Assembly: GCA_003313425.1 (NCBI GenBank)
Contig: NHZP01000013.1
Coordinates: 806,001-870,000 of the forward strand
DNA: 64,000 nt
Direction: 5' to 3'
DNA from: Pseudopyrenochaeta lycopersici
Taxonomy: Eukaryota; Ascomycota; Dothideomycetes; Pleosporales; Pseudopyrenochaetaceae
A program made the position numbers and the translations under genes. Shown here piece after piece: positions 52,876 through 64,000 of the stretch (positions are counted from its first letter, which is position 1; each line of letters opens with the position of its first letter). The notes under the pieces were generated by a model that was given only the letters and a program-made list of their open reading frames with translations, searched no databases and had not been told where the DNA came from.

Positions 52876-54679
52876 ATGCCCAGCAACGTCGTGCTGTTAA
52901 TCTCTACCGTCCTGATAGGAACACTGTATCGACTGCTTCGAATCGGTCGACGACCAAATGGGTACCCTCCAGGGCCCCCTACGATACCGGTGCTTGGGAA
53001 TCTGCATCAAGTGCGTATCATAATAGCAAGTCGAATTTGGTTTAACATCAGGTAGATAGCGTCAGCAACAACTGCACCACATCTGCAATTCCAAAAGTGG
53101 GCAGAAGATTACGGTCCAATCTACTCACTAATACTTGGTACCAAAGTGATGATTGTATTGTCTCAAGATAAAGTGTTCAAGGCGTTACTGGACAAAAGAA
53201 GTGCAATTTACAGCTCCCGTCCGGATCTATATGTCGGAGGGCATCTATTAAGCGGTGGGCTCAGGATGTTGATGGAGGCAAGTTAGGTATTTGAAATTTT
53301 CGCTTTTCTGAATACTGACTTCTTCAACGTAGCCGTATGGCCCAAATTGGCGATTGGTCAGTCTTGCTATATAGACCAGTATGCATCAAAGTATTGACAG
53401 ATGCACAGCAGCGAAAGGTCGCCCATAGTGCACTGAACATAAAAAAATCTGAAGCATACGCGCCATACCAAGAAGTGGAAAACAAACAGCTACTCTTCGA
53501 CATCATGCAAGACTCAACAGATCTTCTTGGCCACTTTCGCCGTTTTGCATCTTCATTGACAACGAATATCGTCTTTGGGTAGGGCTCGACGTCAACGCAT
53601 CATGAAACCTATCTAACAGCTACAGATTTCGATGGAAAACATTCGATAACCCTCACCTACGAGAGTTCTTTTGTATTCTTGACAATTTGGTAGCACTCAA
53701 CTCAACAGGCGGTGCCGCCTTTGCCGATTTCTTCCCAATTCTTCGTAATCTGCCAGCACCACTTTATCCAATCAAGCAAAAGGCAAAAGAGCATCATGAT
53801 CATGAAAAGAAAGTTTACATGGGCTATTACCTCCAAGCTAAGGAGGCGATCGTGAACAAGCTTCCCACCGCCAGGCCATGCACATGCGATGATATTGTCG
53901 AGATGCAGCGGCAGCAAGGTTTTAGCGACGAGTTTGCAGCCTACATCGCCTGTACGTTCTTCGAAGCAGGCAGTGAAACAACATCCTCGGAGCTCTATGG
54001 CTTCGCACAAGCTATGCTCTTATACCCCGAAGCACAACGAAAAGGTCAAGAAGAAGTCGATCGCATATGTGGTGATGAGCGCTGGCCCACGCTGGATGAT
54101 ATGCCTAATCTTCCGTACGTGCGAGCATGCATCAAAGAAACGCTGCGCTGGATTCCTGCCGCCATCCTCGGTGCGGTACCTCATGCGCTTACCGAAGATG
54201 ATGAGTATATGGGCTACCACCTTCCTGCAGGCGCCATGATCCTGCTAAACGTATGGACTGTACACCGCGACCCCAAACGCTACTACTCTCCAGAAAAATT
54301 CCTACCAGAACGTTACCTTGGCGATGACACGACCTCCGCAGAGAGTTACACCCTCAACGATGTTTCGAAACGGGATCACTTCTCCTTTGGCTGCGGACGA
54401 CGCGCGTGTCCTGGTGCTCATATTGCGGATCACAGTCTGTTCCTCGCTATGGCGAGATTACTATGGGCTTTTGATATCAAACCTAGGATTGGAGAGGATG
54501 GCAAAGAGATATTGCCGGTACAGGATGACTTTGCGCAGGGTATGACTGTGCACCCAAAGAAATTCGAGGTGAGTATCACGCCAAGGGGGAATAAGAGGGG
54601 AGAACTTGTCAGGAGAATGTGGGAAGAGGCGGGGAAAGAGTTAGACAGCGAGGGGCAGTTCTTGAAGAGCCCAATCTAA
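52876..54679 (+). CDS. Cytochrome P450 monooxygenase
   Basis: Exons 52876..53010, 53056..53277, 53333..53356, 53409..53578 and 53626..54679 join in phase to 534 residues. An N-terminal membrane anchor (VVLLISTVLIGTLYRLL) and the proline hinge YPPGPPTIPVLGNL are followed by FEAGSETTSS of the I helix, K-E-T-L-R near residue 355 and the heme loop FSFGCGRRACPGAH with its Cys near residue 445. The model needs a GC-AG intron (53278..53332, donor GCAAGT) and a 24-nt exon; with them the motif YGPNWRLQRKVAHSALN is restored. It looks intact. The substrate is unknown; the P-Y-G-x-x-W-R-x-Q-R-K pattern resembles fungal P450s related to O-methylsterigmatocystin-oxidoreductase-like annotations, which says little about chemistry. 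Confidence 0.9.
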
Positions 54680-55056
54680 GTACACAGTGCGTTCGCGTAC
54701 TTTCTTTCATTGTGAAATCCCTAACTCTTTTAGGGGTTGAGTAAAAGCCGGTTTTAGGTCCCCCTTGCAACAGCTCAAAATTAAATCAGAGTTCGATAAC
54801 GCTGATTGTATAAGCGAGTCGTCGTGCTTTGTTCCGGTACTTGGCTAAGGTATAATGCCCACTGATAACTTTTGAATCTTTGTCTATCCCCACGCCATAT
54901 TTCATACCCTTTATCACAGGAAGGCTCTTTGTACTCATGGCCGACCAACATGGCATATATGATCTTTGTCACATGCATCATGTCTGTTGACACCCATCCC
55001 CCTTTCAACCTCTCTCACGTCACCAATTGCTGACTCGCCAAAAAAAACTGGTAGGC

Positions 55057-58000
55057 ATGGCCGGTAACATGAATACAAACGATCATGATACCCGAGGCGC
55101 GGAGATTTCCCAAGTAGCTGCCACTCAGTCGTCGGGGAAAGATGCTATCATCAACGCATGGCTGCGCTTGCTTTATCTAGAACACGACTATGTTGGGGAC
55201 ACGCTCTCAATATCCGTCGAGGACTTCATCAAAATCATTGCAACTGCTGACACTGATCCTCGCAACAGCTGGCTATCAGACGATCAGGTCGCTTTGCCTA
55301 TGATTTTGTTGACGGAGCTTCAGAAGAAAAGACCCGATATATTGGTCATACCACCCACGGCTGCGTCGATTCTCGGTAGTATAGGCCTGGGTATCTACCC
55401 TTCAAACTATCTCCTCCACCAGTTTCCTAATATTGCACGGGCAATGATGTCAGAAAGCGTTAAGTGGATTGTCGTCCCATGCAATGATGGCATGACTCGG
55501 GACGCGGAGCAGACACTACTTGATCAGAGAAACAAAAACGGACTCGAGAGCAATGAAGTGGCAGGATCCGCAGCAAGGGAGATTCAAGATGGAGGAAGAA
55601 TAACTGCACATACCAGTGGAACTAAGAAAGGCAATGGCACAAAAGGAACTAACAGGCCTCGAACTGTTGGCGTCACTCATCAGGGCATTGGTGCGCATTG
55701 GGGCCTCATGATTATCGACAAGCAAATGGAAGACGCTAGATGGCTCGATGGAAGTCTTGAAATTGGAAACGAGCGGAACAAGACCTACATCAAAGCCATG
55801 CACAATGCTGGCGGATCTGCTGGAAAGATTCTCTGTGGATATGACAAAGTAATGAGACGAGCCCGCGGACGCATTGCGACAAGCACACTCAAGCATGTTC
55901 CCCAAGACCAGCAGCACAACAGTTATAATGGAGACGGAGGTTCTGCTTGCGGACCTTGGGTTTTTGCCATGCTGAAATATATTTTGGAGAACCCTCAATT
56001 CCTTACGAATGGCCGCGGGCTCAAAGGCAACTTTGACAAAGGATCCCAAGATCGTCATATCAGAGACATGGCCTTCAACTCCTGGTCGAGCCGGCGTACT
56101 ATGCAGCATATCATTCGCCAGGAGGCCGACAAAGATTTGCTTGCGGATGAACTGCCGTACAAAATGACCGTGCCAATCCTGAAAATTCTCGGGACTCTTC
56201 GCGCTGCCGATTTGCTGAGGGATGTTAACAATTTTCTTGGTGGTACTTCCCGGCCATCCAGACGGGGCAGACAACGGCCAAGTTTTGGCCCAAATGACGA
56301 CGAAGGCGGCAACGACGATGATAATCTTCAGCGCTCTACTCCCGAAAGCCCTTCTCTCACGAAAATTTTACAATTACTGCAAACCGTTACACAAAACCCA
56401 AATGCGCTCTCGCAATTATCAGTTGACCAACAGAAGGTTTTAGCAGAGCAACTTTCACTTTATCCAGAGGCAAAGCAATCGCCAAAAGGAGGAGCTACTT
56501 CATCCAACATCGTCAAGGCACTTCAAGACCACGCTGTCAATTTTGTACAATTACCGGTAACCCAGCTGGAAGACTTCGTTGCTTTGAACCTAGTAGGAGA
56601 CTCGCTTAAACCTGAGATGCCAGAATGGGAACAACGAGCCATTTTGACACATGTCCTGGGAGATTTCGATAGCTTGTCTGAAGATGACAGCTCTACCTGG
56701 AAGGCTAAAGATCCACGCTTTAAAGACCTTCAGACGGCGTCCCATGACCAAGTGATTGCAGCATTGAAGGGATTTGTTGCCATTGTACCCAAGTCCAGAC
56801 TACGTGGCTCTGTCACAAGTTATCCTCGGAGTTATATCGATCTTCTTGATTCTCAGCGAACAGTTCGCGCTAGGGGTCATCTCAACGCAGATAAAATAAT
56901 TACCAATGAGGTGCCCTTGCGTGTAGAAGAAGTGCCCTCTCGTACAGGCTGGCCGGAGGGAATAGATGAATTACCAGACTTCGCGAGGCTATCTCATGAC
57001 GAGCTCGCAAAGTGGGAAGCTTGCAACCCTGAATTATTCCAAGAGAAGAAAGAGGGCCATAATGATGTGACGAGTCGTGCGTTGCTGCACAAGAATTTCA
57101 AGGGCTCTTTTCGAAATGCCAGCCATGAAGATCTCCTACAAGTGTGGGTTCGAGATGCGACGGTCTTCGAGGACTTGGCCATCGGTGAGCTTGAGGCGGA
57201 CCAAATCTTGATTAAAATGATGAAGGCTTATGAGCCCCACGCACTTCATTGGATGAAACTCAAACTCACTACTAAGAAAAGCAAAGGCAAGAATGGGAAA
57301 GTAGGGGAACATGCTGTGCCTATCAAATCGAACAAAAGACTTCACGACGGTGCTCAACCAGGCAATGCCCCAAAGAAAACCAAGGTTGATTACGCCACCA
57401 TCAGCACCGAGGAACTCATGAAGGAGGTCAATGACAATATAAAGAAGCACAAATCTATCGATGATACCAGAGCACCTAACGAGTACTCGTATAGGGCTAT
57501 TCTGTTTGTCGCCCAAGGCGGGACTTTCAAGACCGAGAACGCAGCTCGCTGTAATACAATCTGGATCCGTGACAGCAATGTCTTTACTGAGGGTATGGAC
57601 TTCGAAGTTACCAAGGGGAACAAAATCAAGCTGCTCAAAAATATCTTCCACGGCAATATCAGAGCAAGAATGCAGTCCAGGTACGAAGTGACGCCGCAAG
57701 AAGTCTTCAATGTTACAGACCTGGGTTCAAGTGACGACGAACAACCCGAAAAATCGACCACACCACCCAACAGACTAGGCTCCGAGATGTCCGATGCTCC
57801 AAAGAAACCTGAGAATGATATGGGTACTGTAGATGAGGCGAAAGTTTCATCAGAGCAGGAGGGTGAGTCTTGCACAGCGACAGCAGTGAAGAGAAAGCCT
57901 GAAGACGCGACTGGGCCAGGCCAGACCAATCAAGCCAAAGAAACCTTCCCAAGCGTGTCTGAGCAGGCTACTGCGTCGAACAAATTCCTGACGACGGATA

Positions 58001-58536
58001 ATCCAGTCCCTCTCACAGAGCCACTTACTAGCGGTAGTACCAAGCGAAAGCAGGACGAGTATCAAACAGACAGCACCCAAACAGACACGACTGAACCTCC
58101 AGCAAAGAAGCTAAAGCGCTTGTTACCTAACTTTCTAAAAATTCCAGAACCGGAGGTCAAGCTCTGGGTCGAGAAGTTACCAGCATATCTGCGCAGCGAG
58201 TTGTACAATGCGGAGCTAGAAATCAAGGACTTTCGTCGCGCCCGAACTTGGCTACAGCGCATGTTCACAGACACATTCCAAACCATACAAGCAAAGGAAA
58301 CACTATCGGGTGAAGACCTCAAGGTATTGCGTGCGTGGCGCTTTGAACAAGATTACGCTTGGCGGTACCAGAAGACGGAATCTGGATTGAGAAAGTTCTT
58401 GGACGAAGTGCTATTGAAAAACACGTTTAGGGAGCGGATAGGGAAAAGAGATGCTATCGAAAAGACGATTAAGTTTCCGGACTTGAGGGGGGATGAAACT
58501 ATGTGGCCGGATTATTGGAGGAGCGCTGGGGTGTGA
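55057..58536 (+). CDS. Large protein with N-terminal Ulp1/C48-like cysteine protease module
   Basis: A single 1,159-residue frame from the ATG at 55057. A protease-like module covers about residues 90-330: GIGAHWGLMIIDKQ with His214, ARWLDGSLE with Asp231 and GGSACGPWVFAMLKYIL with Cys298, preceded by a Gln-rich loop. The order H, D, Q, C and the H-W-x-x-x-x-I-D and C-G-x-x-V contexts match the adenain/Ulp1 fold that cleaves SUMO-like tails. The middle and C-terminal parts contain several helical modules with related motifs (LLQVWVRDATVF and NTIWIRDSNVF), basic KKTK/KKLKR patches and acidic linkers, and end in WPDYWRSAGV. I know no named family for the full architecture. It is intronless, unlike most neighbours, and sits beside degenerate transposon-like DNA and a HET gene. 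Confidence 0.72.
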   Translation: MAGNMNTNDHDTRGAEISQVAATQSSGKDAIINAWLRLLYLEHDYVGDTLSISVEDFIKIIATADTDPRNSWLSDDQVALPMILLTELQKKRPDILVIPPTAASILGSIGLGIYPSNYLLHQFPNIARAMMSESVKWIVVPCNDGMTRDAEQTLLDQRNKNGLESNEVAGSAAREIQDGGRITAHTSGTKKGNGTKGTNRPRTVGVTHQGIGAHWGLMIIDKQMEDARWLDGSLEIGNERNKTYIKAMHNAGGSAGKILCGYDKVMRRARGRIATSTLKHVPQDQQHNSYNGDGGSACGPWVFAMLKYILENPQFLTNGRGLKGNFDKGSQDRHIRDMAFNSWSSRRTMQHIIRQEADKDLLADELPYKMTVPILKILGTLRAADLLRDVNNFLGGTSRPSRRGRQRPSFGPNDDEGGNDDDNLQRSTPESPSLTKILQLLQTVTQNPNALSQLSVDQQKVLAEQLSLYPEAKQSPKGGATSSNIVKALQDHAVNFVQLPVTQLEDFVALNLVGDSLKPEMPEWEQRAILTHVLGDFDSLSEDDSSTWKAKDPRFKDLQTASHDQVIAALKGFVAIVPKSRLRGSVTSYPRSYIDLLDSQRTVRARGHLNADKIITNEVPLRVEEVPSRTGWPEGIDELPDFARLSHDELAKWEACNPELFQEKKEGHNDVTSRALLHKNFKGSFRNASHEDLLQVWVRDATVFEDLAIGELEADQILIKMMKAYEPHALHWMKLKLTTKKSKGKNGKVGEHAVPIKSNKRLHDGAQPGNAPKKTKVDYATISTEELMKEVNDNIKKHKSIDDTRAPNEYSYRAILFVAQGGTFKTENAARCNTIWIRDSNVFTEGMDFEVTKGNKIKLLKNIFHGNIRARMQSRYEVTPQEVFNVTDLGSSDDEQPEKSTTPPNRLGSEMSDAPKKPENDMGTVDEAKVSSEQEGESCTATAVKRKPEDATGPGQTNQAKETFPSVSEQATASNKFLTTDNPVPLTEPLTSGSTKRKQDEYQTDSTQTDTTEPPAKKLKRLLPNFLKIPEPEVKLWVEKLPAYLRSELYNAELEIKDFRRARTWLQRMFTDTFQTIQAKETLSGEDLKVLRAWRFEQDYAWRYQKTESGLRKFLDEVLLKNTFRERIGKRDAIEKTIKFPDLRGDETMWPDYWRSAGV

Positions 58537-58796
58537 ATGGTATGATAGGAGGTCATGGGAAGGAAATAGGTAAGTGAGTTTCAGCACAGCTCCAATGCAG
58601 ACAATGTGGTTAATTTATAATTGATTGAGTCTCTTTTATTATTGAATTCGCGCAGCACGCACTCCAGAGCTGTTCATGACTTCGTCGCGTTTAAATGGAA
58701 ATGGCCAGAATATGGAGCGACCGAGGTCTCTTGCTCTCTGATTTCAACAACTTGTTAGCAGTAACTAGATAACATCCCCCACTACGTAGCGAGAAC
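58537..58796. other. 3' region of the protease-like gene
   Basis: Transition from coding DNA to a TA-rich tract. A short direct repeat tagcgagaa occurs at about 58787 and 58804. Nothing else is supportable. Confidence 0.4.
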
Positions 58797-59245
58797 CACA
58801 CCGTAGCGAGAAAACCAACAGGTACTTAGACTTTAACACATCAGAAACTCTTCCTATATCTAGCTATCTATATTTTACTAATTAGATAGTATAACTTAGC
58901 TATTCCTAGACATCTTAAACCCCTTTAATCTAAAAATTACGTTACGTATTATCGCCTTCGCGCCTAATTTATAGAGAGCCTTATTCTTTAGTAAAACAGC
59001 GTTCCTTTCCTATAGCACTACTATTAAGCTCTTACTAGTCTATAATACTTATAATAGTACTATCTAAGTCTTAGAACCTTACTATAATGCTTAGGAGTTA
59101 TTACTAGCCTTATATCTACTGTTGCACGCAAATTTATGTTAGGGTTGCTACTCTAATTAGTACTGCTCTAGATTAATTACTAGTTCTAGCTAGTGTAAAA
59201 CAGCTACATAATTATTATAGTGGCTGCTAGGCCTGTAGCGGTGTG
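58797..59245. mobile_element. TA-rich degenerate transposon-like remnant with short inverted ends
   Basis: About 450 bp of strongly TA-rich DNA, packed with TA dinucleotides (cttactatta, ctataatac, tagtactatc), as expected after RIP-type C-to-T mutation. It begins CACACCG (58797-58803) and ends CGGTGTG (59239-59245), an inverted pair whose adjoining bases are also partly matched. No coding frame survives. A clear target-site duplication is not seen, so the exact ends and class (MITE or fragment of a larger element) are uncertain. Confidence 0.45.
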
Positions 59246-59675
59246 AAGTCTTGGCAAGCGGGCCGACCTTAGCCCCGCAGCCTTGCGATCCAACTCAACC
59301 TTGGCCATGCCTCCAGTCAACCAACTCACCTCTTACAGAATTCGCCACCTCACAAGGGTATGGCCGGAGCGGGTCGGCCATCCTCCCTGCTAGAGGTGGC
59401 GACATACATGACTGTTATTGTTCATAAACATGCTTATACAGCTACTAACCCCATCGTCTGCATACTAAAGCGACATTAAAATCCGATGGCCGTCAGCGTA
59501 TCTAGATGTTCATCCCTTCTCTTTCTCGTCTCCACCAGCTGCTCCACTCGATCGTCGGCCTCATTCCACCGCCTTGACTCCAAACATCAAGGCGGAGTAG
59601 CATATTGTAAACATGCGCATTGTTATCTTCAAATTTGTTACTCTCTAATAAAAGTTCCGCTTCCTGTTTAGACAC
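59246..59675. other. Intergenic region downstream of the HET gene
   Basis: About 430 bp. GC content returns to normal. A loose inverted pair gggccgacc/gggtcggcc (about 59270 and 59370) may be a hairpin. No gene is seen. Confidence 0.35.
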
Positions 59676-62600
59676 TTAAAACACCCATAGGTGCTGCGGT
59701 GGTTTACTGAATGATAAATATCCGCTTTGGATAACCGCTACGCCAAGCCTTTGAGACACTACTCCGCATGGCTGCCCGAGAGTGGCGCAGGAGACAACCA
59801 AGACGTAAAAATGAGTGCCCGGTTTCAAATCCTTCCCCCACGAAACATCTGCAAACCTTTTCCAACTGTCTTGACTAAACTTGTTCCAACCATTGGGTGT
59901 GTGCCGCGCGAGAACAACGCATCCCAGACGTCTGATGTCGACATGCTTTTGGTTGTCAAACCGAATGCAGCCGACTGCATGACCTTCCGCAGATTCTATC
60001 TTGCAATTTGAGTCAGGCAAAAGTGTAATGCGGCAATCTTGCGAAACTCTCGCCACTGAAGCCGCTAATATGCTCTGACTTCGACCGCTTGAGCTAGTAG
60101 GGATGAGCTTGATATCTCGGTTCCAGCTTGTGTTGACTTTGGGAATATCTCCATAACGAATCTTCCCCTCATATCTCATCCACGACCACGATGGGACCGT
60201 CTCAATCTTGCGATCGCTTATTTCCTTCAACGGCTCTTTACCGGACCGTTGCCAGAGCAGGCTCTTTCCGAGGCAACAGTGGATAATACCATGCGAACTT
60301 TCCGTCGTGTAAAATTCATTCAGTCTGCGCTCTAGTCCGGAGATTGCATATGGCCTATCCTTGCTGTGCGTAAGGGCGAGCTCCGAGTACCTGGTGAAGA
60401 TGCTTTCAAACGCAGAGGATGCACCTCCCGAAGGTGGTCCGGCGGTCGCCATTGGAAATCGGGAACTACTTAGCAAGTTCGAAGGCCTTGCTCCATGTCA
60501 GTCTATGAACCAGCGCGAAGGTATAGGAATACACAAGCACAGGGTAGTTATGAGATCAGACTAAACGAAACATCACTCACTTAGCCATTTGAGTCAGATT
60601 ATCGCAGCGGATTACAGATCCGCACTCCCAGTATGTTTGCGTTGCGGTGAAATGGATTGTCCGAGGTGATAAGGCTCGTTCTTGCAACACCCAGCCGCGT
60701 TTGTTCAGCACTCCATTTTCTACGTCGCGGTTGAAACCTTCGCCGACTTCACAAGCATAGACGCTGAATGGAGCGGCTGTGTTATTGTCTACAAGCTTGA
60801 CAAACTTTTTGCCAAGCCGAGGGAGAAAACGATCGTTCGAATTCTTGGCAGTGGTGGCAGCGATGGTGCAGTATGCTGAAGCAAACACCTTTTCCATGCG
60901 TTTTGCTTCATGCTGCCAATCATTTTCGTCGTCCTGAATTATACAAAGTGAATCGATCCAGAGAAATTGTATGCCAAGCTTCCGAGTAACGACGACAGCA
61001 TCTTGGAACAATTCTGGTAGATTCTCGAACTTGATTGCTTTGCGGTGTGCCACAATAGTGTCTTTCTCGGTACGAAGCGGCGTGGCACCTCCCCAGCAAT
61101 GAGATAGGGCAATGTACTTCCCTGATTTACCCTTGGCATTGCGAAGACGTAACCTCTCTGGGTTTTCCGAATCTCCAATGTCGAGTACTCTCGTGGGTAA
61201 TTTGCTATCTTGAGCAGAATTATATCCATGATCATTATGACTATAATTGCAGTCTCGAAGCCATTCACAAAGCAAGGAAAAATTCCTCCCGGTGTCTGCT
61301 TCAAGTAAGAGTGGAAGTCCGACTTCAATACCCATGCTTGCGGGTTCCGAGTCTAATCACAGTTAGATTACGATCTGGGCGAATGAGCGGGAGATAAGAG
61401 AACTAAAAGATATGGCATACCCGGATCTGTACAGAGCCTCAGAAAGCTGTGGTCGACCTTACCGCCAGTTACGGCTTCGATTATTAAGAATTGCGGCGCA
61501 ATTCCAATGTTGATTCTCCCCACCCCCTTATTGTCTAGACTACCGCGAGATTTAAGTATCAACCCACAGAGGTCACACATCTTATCAGACTCCCTTTGCT
61601 CAGACTCCCTTAGCTCTTTTGCATTGCGAAAGAGAGTATAGCCGCGCCTTGGTGATTCCAGCAACCATCTGATAGGGATACTCTTGCACAAGTCGCACAG
61701 CTTTGGTGGTATTTCAGGCGTAGAACAAGAAGGGGTGAACCGTTTCGAAAATTGGATAGCGAAGTCCGATACTTCCTCATCTTCCGTCGGCGTGTCTCCG
61801 AACCCGTGCTGCTGTCGAAGAGTATATGGTAAGCTCCACCCAAAAAGCGTGGCTGATTCCAAAGTTTACTCACTTCCTACAATCAAGAAGAAGGCCCGAT
61901 TAATTAGTGCCCAAGACACATGCTTTGGTATGGTTTCCCGAACTTACCAACTGCATCCGCCAAGATGGCACGGTCAGCTACCAACTTAAAAAGGCAGTAT
62001 ATACTACACTCTGGAAAATTCACTTACTCCCTGCAATGGTTAAAGAGAGGAGGTTAGCAATTATTTTAGCAGGAAGGTGTATCCATTGCACCAGAAGTTA
62101 CTTACAGTCTATTATAGTAGAAAGGCGAACGTCAACGATAAGTTTACGGAGAGACACGTTAGCTAGGATCACTCACTTCCTGTGATTGTAAGGAGGTGTA
62201 GTTAGCTAAAAGTCGATAGGAAGGCATGCTAGAGCTGATTTACTACCTATGTTTAACAGGAGGCAACGTTAGCAATTTAGAAACAAATTTGTTTGCCTAA
62301 ACAGGTTTTACTTACAGCCTAGAACGATTAGAAGAGGCCAGCTATATGTATTTAAATAAGGCGCCTTGTTGCAACTTACTTTCTATCCGTTGTCATATTA
62401 GCTAATAGCTTTATTGTGAACTACATTACTAAATTACTATACACTTACAATCTATAAAAAACAAAGAAGTTATAGTTAGCTAACAAAATGTACTTTTTAA
62501 GTTTTAGCCTAGTTTCCTTACTCTCTATTATTATTAAGGCGGAATTAGCTATTTATACAATATATTACTCCTTTACAGCGTTTACATACATCCTATAGCC

Positions 62601-64000
62601 ATAAAAAGATATAGTTAGCTACCAAACTAGTAAATTATGTAATATTAGTATATACTCACATCCTGCAACAATGGAAGGAACGCGATTAGCTATTATTGCT
62701 ATAATTTCTCCAAGGGGCCTACTAACTAGCTGTAATGATTTGAGACAGACGATTAACTACCCATCTAGCGTACTATTTTTAAATGGGGTTAACCTACACG
62801 CTGCAACCGTCAAGAACACACGGTCAGCTATCTATCTAGCTTACTATTCTTAAGAAGGGTCCACTTACATACTACAACCATCAAGAACGCGCGATCAGCT
62901 ATCCATATAGCATACTATTCTCGAGTAGGGTCTACTTACCTCCTGCAATGGTTAAGCGTACGCGTTAAGCTATCCATCTAGCTTACTATTCTCGAGTAGG
63001 GTCCACTTACCGCCTGCAATGGTTAAGAGCACGCGGTTAGCTATCCATCTAGCATACTACCCTCGAGTAGGGTCCACTTACAAGCTGCAACCATCAAGAA
63101 CGCGCGATCAGCTATCCATATAGCATACTATTCTCGAGTAGGGCCTACTTACCAGCTGCAGCCGTTAAGAGTACGCGGTTAGTTATCTATTTAGCTTACT
63201 ATTCTTAAGCAGGGCCTACTTACATACTACAACGGTTAAGAGCACGCGGTCAGCTATCTATATAGCATACTATTCTCGAGTAGGGTCTACTTACCGGCTG
63301 TAGCCGTCAAGAGTACGCGGTCAGCTACCTATTAAACTTACTATTCTCGAGTAGGGTCTACTTACATACTACAACCGTCAAGAGTACGCGGTCAGCTATC
63401 TATCTAGCATACTATTCTTAAGAAGGGTCCACTTACATCCTGCAACCATTAAGAGCACGCGGTTAGCTATCCATCTAGCACACTATTCTTAAGAAGGGTC
63501 CACTTACCTCCTGCAACCGTCAAGAGTACGTGGTCAGCTATCTATCTAGCTTACTATTCTCAAGTAGGGTCTACTTACCGGCTGTAGCCGTCAAGAGCAC
63601 GCGGTTAGCTATCTATCTAGCATACTATTATCAAGAAGGGTCTACTTACATCCTGCAGCCGTCAAGAGCACGCGGTTAGCTATCCATCTAGCATACTATT
63701 CACAAGTAGGGTCCACTTACATACTACAACGGTCAAGAGTACGCGGTCAGCTATCCATCTAGCATACTATTCTCAAGCAGGGCCCACTTACATACTACAA
63801 CCGCCAAGAGCACGCGATCAGCTATCCATCGAGCATACTATTCTCGAGTAGGGTCCACCTACCGGCTGTAGCCGTCAAGAGTACGCGGTCAGCTATCTAT
63901 TAAGCTTACTATTCTCGAGTAAGGTCCACTTACACCCTGCAACAGTCAAGAACTCGCGGTCAGCTATCCATCTAGCATACTATTCTCAAGTAGGATCCAC
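59676..64000 (-). CDS. HET-domain (heterokaryon incompatibility-type) protein with single-codon micro-exons, 5' partial
   Basis: Three ordinary exons, 61811..61421, 61352..60581 and 60486..59676, join in phase and encode 657 residues to the stop. Exon 1 carries CDLC motifs (PPKLCDLCKSIP, then KMCDLCGLIL). Exon 2 carries the HET domain: GKYIALSHCWGG, AVVVTRKLGIQFLWIDSLCI and RGWVLQERALSPRTIHF. Exon 3 has the C-terminal WSW-type region (VPSWSWMRYEGKI). Introns are 68, 94 and, before exon 1, 62 nt. No ATG lies between the exon 1 acceptor and its first motif, so translation must begin upstream. Upstream on the same strand is an array of 30 three-base exons, each in phase 0 with exon 1, running past the window end. 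HET proteins trigger cell death on recognition of non-self; the ligand here is unknown. The N-terminal structure is inferred from splice signals. Confidence 0.8.
61874..62729 (-). repeat. Diverged part of the micro-exon array next to the HET exon (13 units)
   Basis: Units 61876 to 62729 are spaced 64-80 bp and are more AT-rich, with little sequence identity outside splice signals. Donors include GTAAGT, GTGAGT, GTAAAT, GTATGT, GTAAGG and GTTAGT. Branch points read CTAAC, CTGAC or CTAAT in nearly all; the intron near 62340 has the weaker CTGGC. All acceptors are AG. Exon length is exactly three bases in every one. Confidence 0.8.
62798..63936 (-). repeat. Homogeneous 71-bp part of the micro-exon array (17 units)
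   Basis: Seventeen units spaced exactly 71 bp apart. The 68-nt introns share a common sequence: donor GTAAGT followed by GGACCC, then GAATAGTATGCTAGAT, the branch region TAGCTGACCGCG or TAGCTAACCGCG, and CTTGACGGTTGCAG or a variant. Most intron differences are transitions (C/T or G/A), but the three exon bases differ by transversions too. Confidence 0.88.

Follow-up and report, generated by a model that had tools for sequence, protein, structure and literature searches.

A HET-Domain Gene of Pseudopyrenochaeta lycopersici with a Predicted N-Terminus Encoded by a Tandem Array of One-Codon Microexons

Introduction

Can a segment of a protein be encoded one residue at a time, by three-base exons that each lie between introns of their own? 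This question is raised by a locus in the Pseudopyrenochaeta lycopersici genome (62.7 Mb), at the end of a 64,000-base stretch of contig NHZP01000013.1 (C13:806001-870000), which is referred to here as the window. A first-pass annotation of the window had described exactly 30 units on the minus strand at 61874-64000, each with three bases between an acceptor and a donor, and had placed this array 5' of an exon at 61811-61421. Both the count and the placement were confirmed, and the array continues beyond the window to 68 units. The exons that follow it encode a protein with a HET domain, a known inducer of cell death in fungi. We consider it likely that this gene, with an ATG-AAG first exon followed by 68 units, is spliced codon by codon into a variable N-terminus of about 70 residues that sets or tunes non-self recognition.

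Structure of the Main Array and Its HET Gene

The main array consists of 68 units (intron ending in AG, NNN, donor) running from C13:872629 down to C13:867874 on the minus strand, with 30 of them in the window. All 68 triplets are in phase 0, are free of stop codons, and run in frame into the HET protein. The introns are 61-77 bases long and the exon is constantly three; GTAAGT serves as the donor in 52 of the 69 introns, and a CTNAY branch motif is present in 66. In the homogeneous part of the array, Tandem Repeats Finder detected a 71-base repeat with 17.5 copies and 81% matches.

Units were read with a dynamic-programming splice-chain parser, which requires AG and a donor by construction; the evidence is the length of the chain. 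Letter-shuffled copies of six array regions (three shuffles each) gave at most four units, compared with 68 in the main array. The longest chain on either strand of window positions 1-61700 was three units, and eight array regions parsed on their opposite strand gave three at most. When the exon length was set to 0-2, 4-9, or 12 bases, shorter chains than those at length 3 were obtained in all eight arrays. A pattern of two adjacent units matched the genome 309 times and its reversed form 0 times. A search for units with GTGAGT as the first donor gave one match. The splice-chain parse thus bears out the first-pass view of single-codon units in introns of their own.

The first exon of the main gene codes for MK alone and is followed directly by the array, giving the predicted N-terminus MKERRYGYELGGQVGDPLGQGGPRYLDYEWPNYGDYELLDGPYYDPEDYPYLLAEYRLDDRIKAVETGLE. 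TATA-like motifs occur within 120 bases 5' of the array start (ACAAG ATG AAG, then GTAAGT). Exons A, B, and C (Table 1) encode 657 residues and, together with MK and the 68 codons, a predicted protein of 727 residues, a stretch of which reads DDRIKAVETGLEQHGFGDTPTEDEEV. Only phase 0 is open across the concatenated exons; the other two phases contain stops. Homologue, domain, and genome searches were run with a 649-residue first model (CAC start, other exon C acceptor) or parts of it. The HET domain (PF06985) was found at residues 209-354 of this model with 105.3 bits against a gathering score of 22.5. It was the sole match of the first model in a hmmscan search against Pfam at E ≤ 0.001, with no NACHT, ankyrin, or WD40 match.

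Table 1. Features of the main gene and its flanking repeat. Positions are those of the window unless a contig prefix is given.
Feature	Position	Strand	Remarks
Microexons 39-68 of 68 (30 units), array part in the window	61874..64000	-	Spelling GPYYDPEDYPYLLAEYRLDDRIKAVETGLE
Remaining 38 units and ATGAAG first exon, outside the window	C13:870005-872709		
Homogenised array part	62757..64000	-	71-base period: 68-base intron and 3-base exon
Diverged units 56-68	61874..62729	-	Variable intron length, constant 3-base exon; ends RIKAVETGLE
Last array intron, 62 bases	61812..61873	-	GTGAGT...CGACAG
HET gene exon A	61421..61811	-	Phase-0 entry; QHGFGDTPTEDEEVSDF... CDLC...CDLC
HET gene exon B	60581..61352	-	HET domain PF06985; six-frame match 60679-61116
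HET gene exon C, through stop codon	59676..60486	-	Junction LTQMAKPSNLLSSSRFPM consistent with homologues
Left copy of 621-base inverted repeat	58785..59405	+	97.6% identical to C13:873713-874333 (minus strand); the pair brackets the whole gene

Codon Order and Homologous Proteins

The last ten codons of the main array (diverged units 59-68) spell RIKAVETGLE and are followed by QHG-FGDTPTEDEEVSDF. At the corresponding place, P0008 reads RIKAIENGLE-SYR-FGNTPTEDEE, P0005 (Xylaria bambusicola) reads RIEAVRDGLE-LRP-FGNTPTEDEEVSDF, and P0004 reads RIAAMKVALE-EQR-LGNSPTENEEVSDF, the ten-residue peptide in each of them lying three residues ahead of the conserved FG/LG. These peptides share 8, 7, and 5 of 10 residues with RIKAVETGLE, and the linker between the array peptide and the conserved part, QHG in the main gene, is three residues long in all of them. 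Random draws of ten residues from the 68 were as good in 0, 0, and 1 of 200000 cases, respectively. No RIKAVETGLE-like peptide was seen in the other 9 of the 12 closest homologues read, several of which are partial or start later.

The match of the last ten codons to homologous proteins indicates that the codons of the main array are very likely read in order. Since RIKAVETGLE corresponds to units 59-68, the most diverged introns flank the part of the peptide that is conserved between genera. The nearest two proteins to the main gene come from Pyrenochaeta and Dendryphion, both of which we take to belong to the Pleosporales, presumably a different class from that of Tuber (discussed below). 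A protein search with the N-terminus of the main gene returned P0001 and P0005 only, and one with the N-terminus of the P41 paralogue returned a single match, P0121.

The Array Family in the Genome

The HET part of the main gene has 112 matches in the genome. Besides the main gene, the 18 best places (L040-L057) were cut out and examined singly, and at 13 of them a microexon array was found directly upstream, on the same strand as the HET match. The paralogous arrays contain 68 (P40), 66 (P41), 36 (P49), 33 (P47), 32 (P51 and P52), 26 (P44 and P48), and 9 units (P42, P50, and P54); P43 and P45 are remnants that have lost their 5' side, with 6 parsed units and 4 units. A 15th array, known from pattern matches, lies at C46:91980-92330 (minus strand), just upstream of a HET match at C46:90612-91428 and inside a pair of terminal inverted repeats (TIRs). 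The family comprises at least 15 genes, 14 read and one recognised by pattern matches. Among 30 HET loci fetched separately, chains of at least four units were found in two, namely P43 and P45. The 14 array genes contain 293 two-unit matches by our own regular expression, compared with 309 genome-wide; the remaining ones, among the matches listed, were one lone match on C1 and four on C46.

The 12 arrays with both ends read comprise 414 microexons and 426 introns, with 0 stop triplets, GT at 424 of 426 donors (the parser permits GT or GC only), and CTNAY in 399 of 426 introns. This count omits P43 and P45, whose 5' ends are lost, and excludes the first parsed triplets of P47 (TGA), P54 (TAA), and P48 (ATG). 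Judged by eye, those of P47 and P54 either belong to the predicted first exon or span its donor, and that of P48 falls in the first exon; an alternative first exon of P47, with a similar score, makes the dropped TGA triplet intronic. At the other end, the first well-scored acceptor after the last donor leads into 107-396 codons of open phase-0 frame in all but two of the 14 genes; in these two, the remnants P43 and P45, a neighbouring acceptor opens the frame instead. Some in-frame AG exists in 14 of 14 genes, which is weaker evidence (chance probability 0.03 if frames were random).

Related paralogues have similar first exons (MEKKWSFT and MENKWSFT; MANITEADVSRNRSDDYFQ and MSSITETNISPNHDNNYFK; MGQEMWEDGLFQ and MSQEGWDDSMFE). 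Paralogous arrays hold codons other than those of the main array, and arrays between similar flanks are unlike, for example EREEERRRGREELKLL... and ERLNRWKRGGKRGKLK...; this does not hold for the near-copies P50/P51/P52 and P43/P45. In a HET-domain tree the array genes cluster, yet they do not form a single clade. The array label changed 6 times, compared with 9.9 in shuffles (as low in 9 of 500), a count inflated by rows L032 and L035, which are array loci labelled as having no group. The HET repertoire of the genome as a whole is very large, with at least 150 of 520 candidates scoring over the Pfam cut-off.

Mis-assembly or a pseudogene relic would account for the lost array 5' ends of P43 and P45 and for one damaged unit, and is very improbable: the 14 array loci lie on twelve contigs and carry eleven distinct unit consensus sequences, the HET frame of the main gene is open across three exons, and TATA-like motifs and an ATG exon immediately precede the start of the main array.

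Near-identical gene copies can differ in size by whole units. P50 and P51 are 98-99% identical in their flanks, both upstream and downstream, and have 9 and 32 units, respectively (AEAYRD-PDH in P50, AEAYRD...PGADH in P51). By BLAST coordinates, their length difference is 1561 bases, equal to 23 units, and the frame is preserved. Identity between P51 and P52 is 99.7% across 5.2 kb; P50, P51, and P52 are near-identical copies, either separate loci or haplotypes. Near-identical multi-unit blocks also recur within arrays, as with 239 bases of the main array that recur 8 units apart at 97.9% identity.

The pieces L043+L069 and L045+L070 (on C63 and at C43:194292) form near-identical array genes, 98.7 and 99.9% identical in two pieces. 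Their arrays are cut on the 5' side by sequence that looks transposase-like by eye, and the remnants differ in unit number.

Variability of Codons and Introns

Variability within arrays was compared in units of modal length from eight arrays, omitting P50, P52, P54, P42, P43, and P45; the TGA of P47 was dropped and the ATG of P48 was counted. The mean pairwise difference per site was 0.49-0.77 in exon columns, compared with 0.065-0.34 in the intron core, with a ratio of the two between 2.3 (P49) and 7.8 (P41). Among single intron columns, the highest value per array was 0.47-0.68. Taken as triplets, the exon was more diverse than all intron triplets in 6 of the 8 arrays, and its diversity was reached by 1 of 53 intron triplets in P49 and 2 of 55 in P40. 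The extreme case is P41, in which introns are 96% identical to the consensus while the codon is GAA, CGA, TTT, CTC, GGA, CTA, or GTC, with a triplet diversity of 0.72 against an intron-triplet median of 0.12. The first-pass proposal of a repeated intron that carries a variable codon as its payload agrees well with these values.

None of the 356 triplets in the eight arrays is a stop codon, whereas 16.8 would be expected when codon columns are shuffled among units and the arrays summed; this figure is no strict probability, since the units are duplicates, and for four of the eight arrays, considered singly, zero stops would be unremarkable (P(0) 0.25-0.89). The comparison of exon and intron columns suggests that the intron is homogenised faster than the codon or apart from it.

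Proposed Mechanism and Alternative Readings

On the proposed mechanism, fungal introns of 50-80 bases would be recognised singly (intron definition), so that three-base exons could be joined in series. Removal of intron n would add codon n to the growing exon and still provide intron n+1 with a normal donor. With every exon a single phase-0 codon, the frame would be preserved whichever donor is joined to whichever acceptor further on, and also when whole units are gained or lost. Tandem duplication, unequal crossing-over, or conversion would copy intron-plus-codon units, with introns staying alike for splicing while codons diversify, and the varied N-terminus would serve the HET domain as a sensor or specificity tag. 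By analogy with the HNWD genes of Podospora, non-self recognition or its tuning is the role that the array most likely serves. We are evenly divided on a more specific form of this reading, in which a recognition segment is written one residue per intron, with a conserved, copying intron as the carrier of a hypervariable codon, and in which unequal exchange, conversion, or splice choice edits the protein by whole residues, yielding a large and always in-frame repertoire of specificities for triggering cell death.

The units might instead form a combinatorial library, in which microexons are skipped or included by choice and one gene yields many N-termini. Any choice of donor and acceptor would be frame-neutral, every exon being one phase-0 codon, and splice sites are so nearly identical between units that neighbours should be hard to distinguish. 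For Tuber, alternative splicing of 3-bp microexons is described in papers that cite the original study (PMC10197012, PMC4986451, and PMC3689799). On the other hand, the ordered and conserved RIKAVETGLE with which the main array ends suggests that at least this part is retained in order, and strong, uniform signals are equally compatible with constitutive splicing. We regard such a library as possible and somewhat doubtful.

Several observations weigh against the serial splicing of the array that is predicted from genomic sequence and against the proposed role of its product in recognition. Uniform tandem repeats allow chaining at other exon lengths too: a length-4 chain of 19 units was obtained in the main array (score 117 against 746, 16%) and a length-7 chain of 20 units in P47 (147 against 358, 41%); in the other six arrays, chains at lengths other than 3 had at most 7 units. 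Five of the 18 places examined (L046, L053, L055, L056, and L057) are array-free in the 1.5-kb flank read. The peptide in P0004, P0005, and P0008 may lie within an ordinary exon. P0001 (Pyrenochaeta sp.), the closest relative with 84% identity, is annotated from a Met within the last intron of the main gene; its start, MLFGWSLPYTLRQ, matches the translation of the last array intron at 12 of 13 residues. As the P0001 model begins in an array intron, the annotation of relatives cannot decide on arrays, and the deposited gene model may overlook one. P0121, an annotated HET protein of Lepidopterella palustris, reads MGAEKWKDSSFQ-YDGWEHTFDNNFALDF, two segments similar to the first exon and to the HET exon in P48-type genes, with no array codons between them. 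Its array is absent, or is skipped, or was passed over by the gene model; if absent, this would suggest that the arrays have grown from a single intron between those two exons. Finally, codon identity and intron haplotype are weakly linked, though not in all arrays: the codon shows weak linkage with the intron before it in several arrays and with the intron after it in P47 and P40, and linkage is undetectable in P48. From this weak linkage and the recurring blocks it follows that units are copied partly as blocks.

P0121, which joins both flanking exons without array codons, fits a reading in which the whole array is one intron of about 4.9 kb and the units are a minisatellite with splice-like signals, or decoys. 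This is unlikely. For an intronic satellite, one would expect neither 414 triplets without a stop nor a codon more variable than its intron, as found in eight arrays; units 56-68 have diverged along the intron and nevertheless retain the donor, the acceptor, the 3-base spacing, and mostly the branch motif; and the last ten codons match homologous proteins.

The linkage data also bear on whether codon variability reflects diversifying selection, or instead incomplete homogenisation of a few founder units through block duplication and drift, with no such selection on the codon. The codon vocabulary of each array is small (7 to 15 kinds in modal-length units of the eight arrays), near-identical multi-unit blocks recur inside arrays, and preceding introns are slightly more alike in same-codon units of several arrays, as founder units would predict. 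P41 argues the other way, since its introns stay at 96% to the consensus while the codon takes 7 kinds, and linkage between the codon and the following intron is absent there. Founder units have a real chance of being the explanation, though one that we put short of even.

Comparison with Known Systems

Schistosome micro-exon genes and aphid bicycle genes contain many very short exons and encode variable proteins. Their exons are longer, their products are secreted, and they are not known to contain uniform one-codon tandem units like those seen here. Fungal introner-like elements are near-identical short spliceosomal introns that multiply and spread to unrelated genes. Unlike these, nearly all paired units in the present genome belong to the tandem arrays of a single HET subfamily (293 of 309 matches, by a search pattern that requires two adjacent units and thus does not seek lone copies).

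The closest precedent is found in Tuber melanosporum, whose NACHT-ankyrin genes are described as having tens of codon-sized, alternatively spliced microexons (Iotti et al. 2012, Fungal Biol 116:261, as reported in PMC10197012, PMC4986451, and PMC3689799). The first-pass annotation had held that no described gene carries such arrays; this claim falls, while its unit structure and payload idea stand, and the HET gene and the family of at least 15 members had escaped it. As the citing papers describe them, the Tuber genes share with those studied here tens of 3-bp exons, membership of a fungal self/non-self type of family, and a proposed role as a source of receptor diversity. They differ in being NACHT-ankyrin genes, whereas ours encode a HET domain with no NACHT match. 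Measured against the same second-hand description, distinctive features here are the position of the array between a start-codon exon and HET exons, the tandem homogenisation of introns, and the differences in copy number. The Tuber study reportedly found only two HET genes, none of them among its NWD genes.

A functional parallel is offered by the HNWD/NWD genes of Podospora anserina (het-d, het-e, and het-r). Their WD40 repeats undergo concerted evolution, vary in number, and contain a few hypervariable codons each; recognition specificity resides in the repeats, and some members carry HET domains (PMC1805685 and PMC2873952). Homogenised repeats with hypervariable codons are likewise found in the array genes. 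In the Podospora genes the repeat is a coding WD40 unit, whereas here it is an intron with a one-codon payload, and the HET-NACHT-WD40 architecture is absent. In Trichoderma virens, the transcription factor Xlr2 contains a regulated microexon (PMC11121469, 2024); like the arrays it is a case of microexons in filamentous fungi, and it is functional but single.

No microexon array in a HET gene was found in the literature searched, with most subscription papers outside its coverage. The same trick as in Tuber would thus be at work in another gene family, and HET genes with homogenised arrays of one codon per intron appear to be new.

If this reading is true, a recognition repertoire can evolve with the spliceosomal intron as its unit, residues being added, lost, and swapped singly and in frame. 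What drives the diversity of HET genes has been stated as an open question (PMC10197012), and it would become testable in a family where variable letters alternate with an intron yardstick at intervals of about 70 bases. Handling 69 introns separated by three-base exons would be a hard problem for the spliceosome. Gene finders can overlook such arrays, as with the P0001 model, which starts inside an intron of the kind described.

Inverted Repeats and Neighbouring Frames

A 621-base inverted repeat, whose outer end reads TAACATCCCCCACTACGTAGCGAGAACC, encloses the main gene as a whole (Table 1). The repeat occurs elsewhere in the genome, often as plus/minus pairs around HET matches: at C14:1142098/1147248, C54:287720/300118 (including P47), C46:88929/100064, C43:244253/248706 (P42), and C5:1757988/1765627. 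A pair on C42 has no HET match inside, among the matches listed. TA precedes ACATC on both sides in ten chosen pairings with both ends readable, two of which share an end, and one repeat end on C68 is without TA; the TA may be a target-site duplication or part of the repeat. TIR elements seem to carry the HET genes as cargo. At the C42 pair (C42:358850-366450), inverted identity extends past the TIR ends, and the same flank is found at C34:432140, suggesting that a larger inverted structure has been duplicated.

Two open frames on the plus strand neighbour the main gene in the window: one at 53606-54679 with cytochrome P450-like motifs, as judged by eye, and one of 1181 codons at 54991-58536 of unassigned nature.

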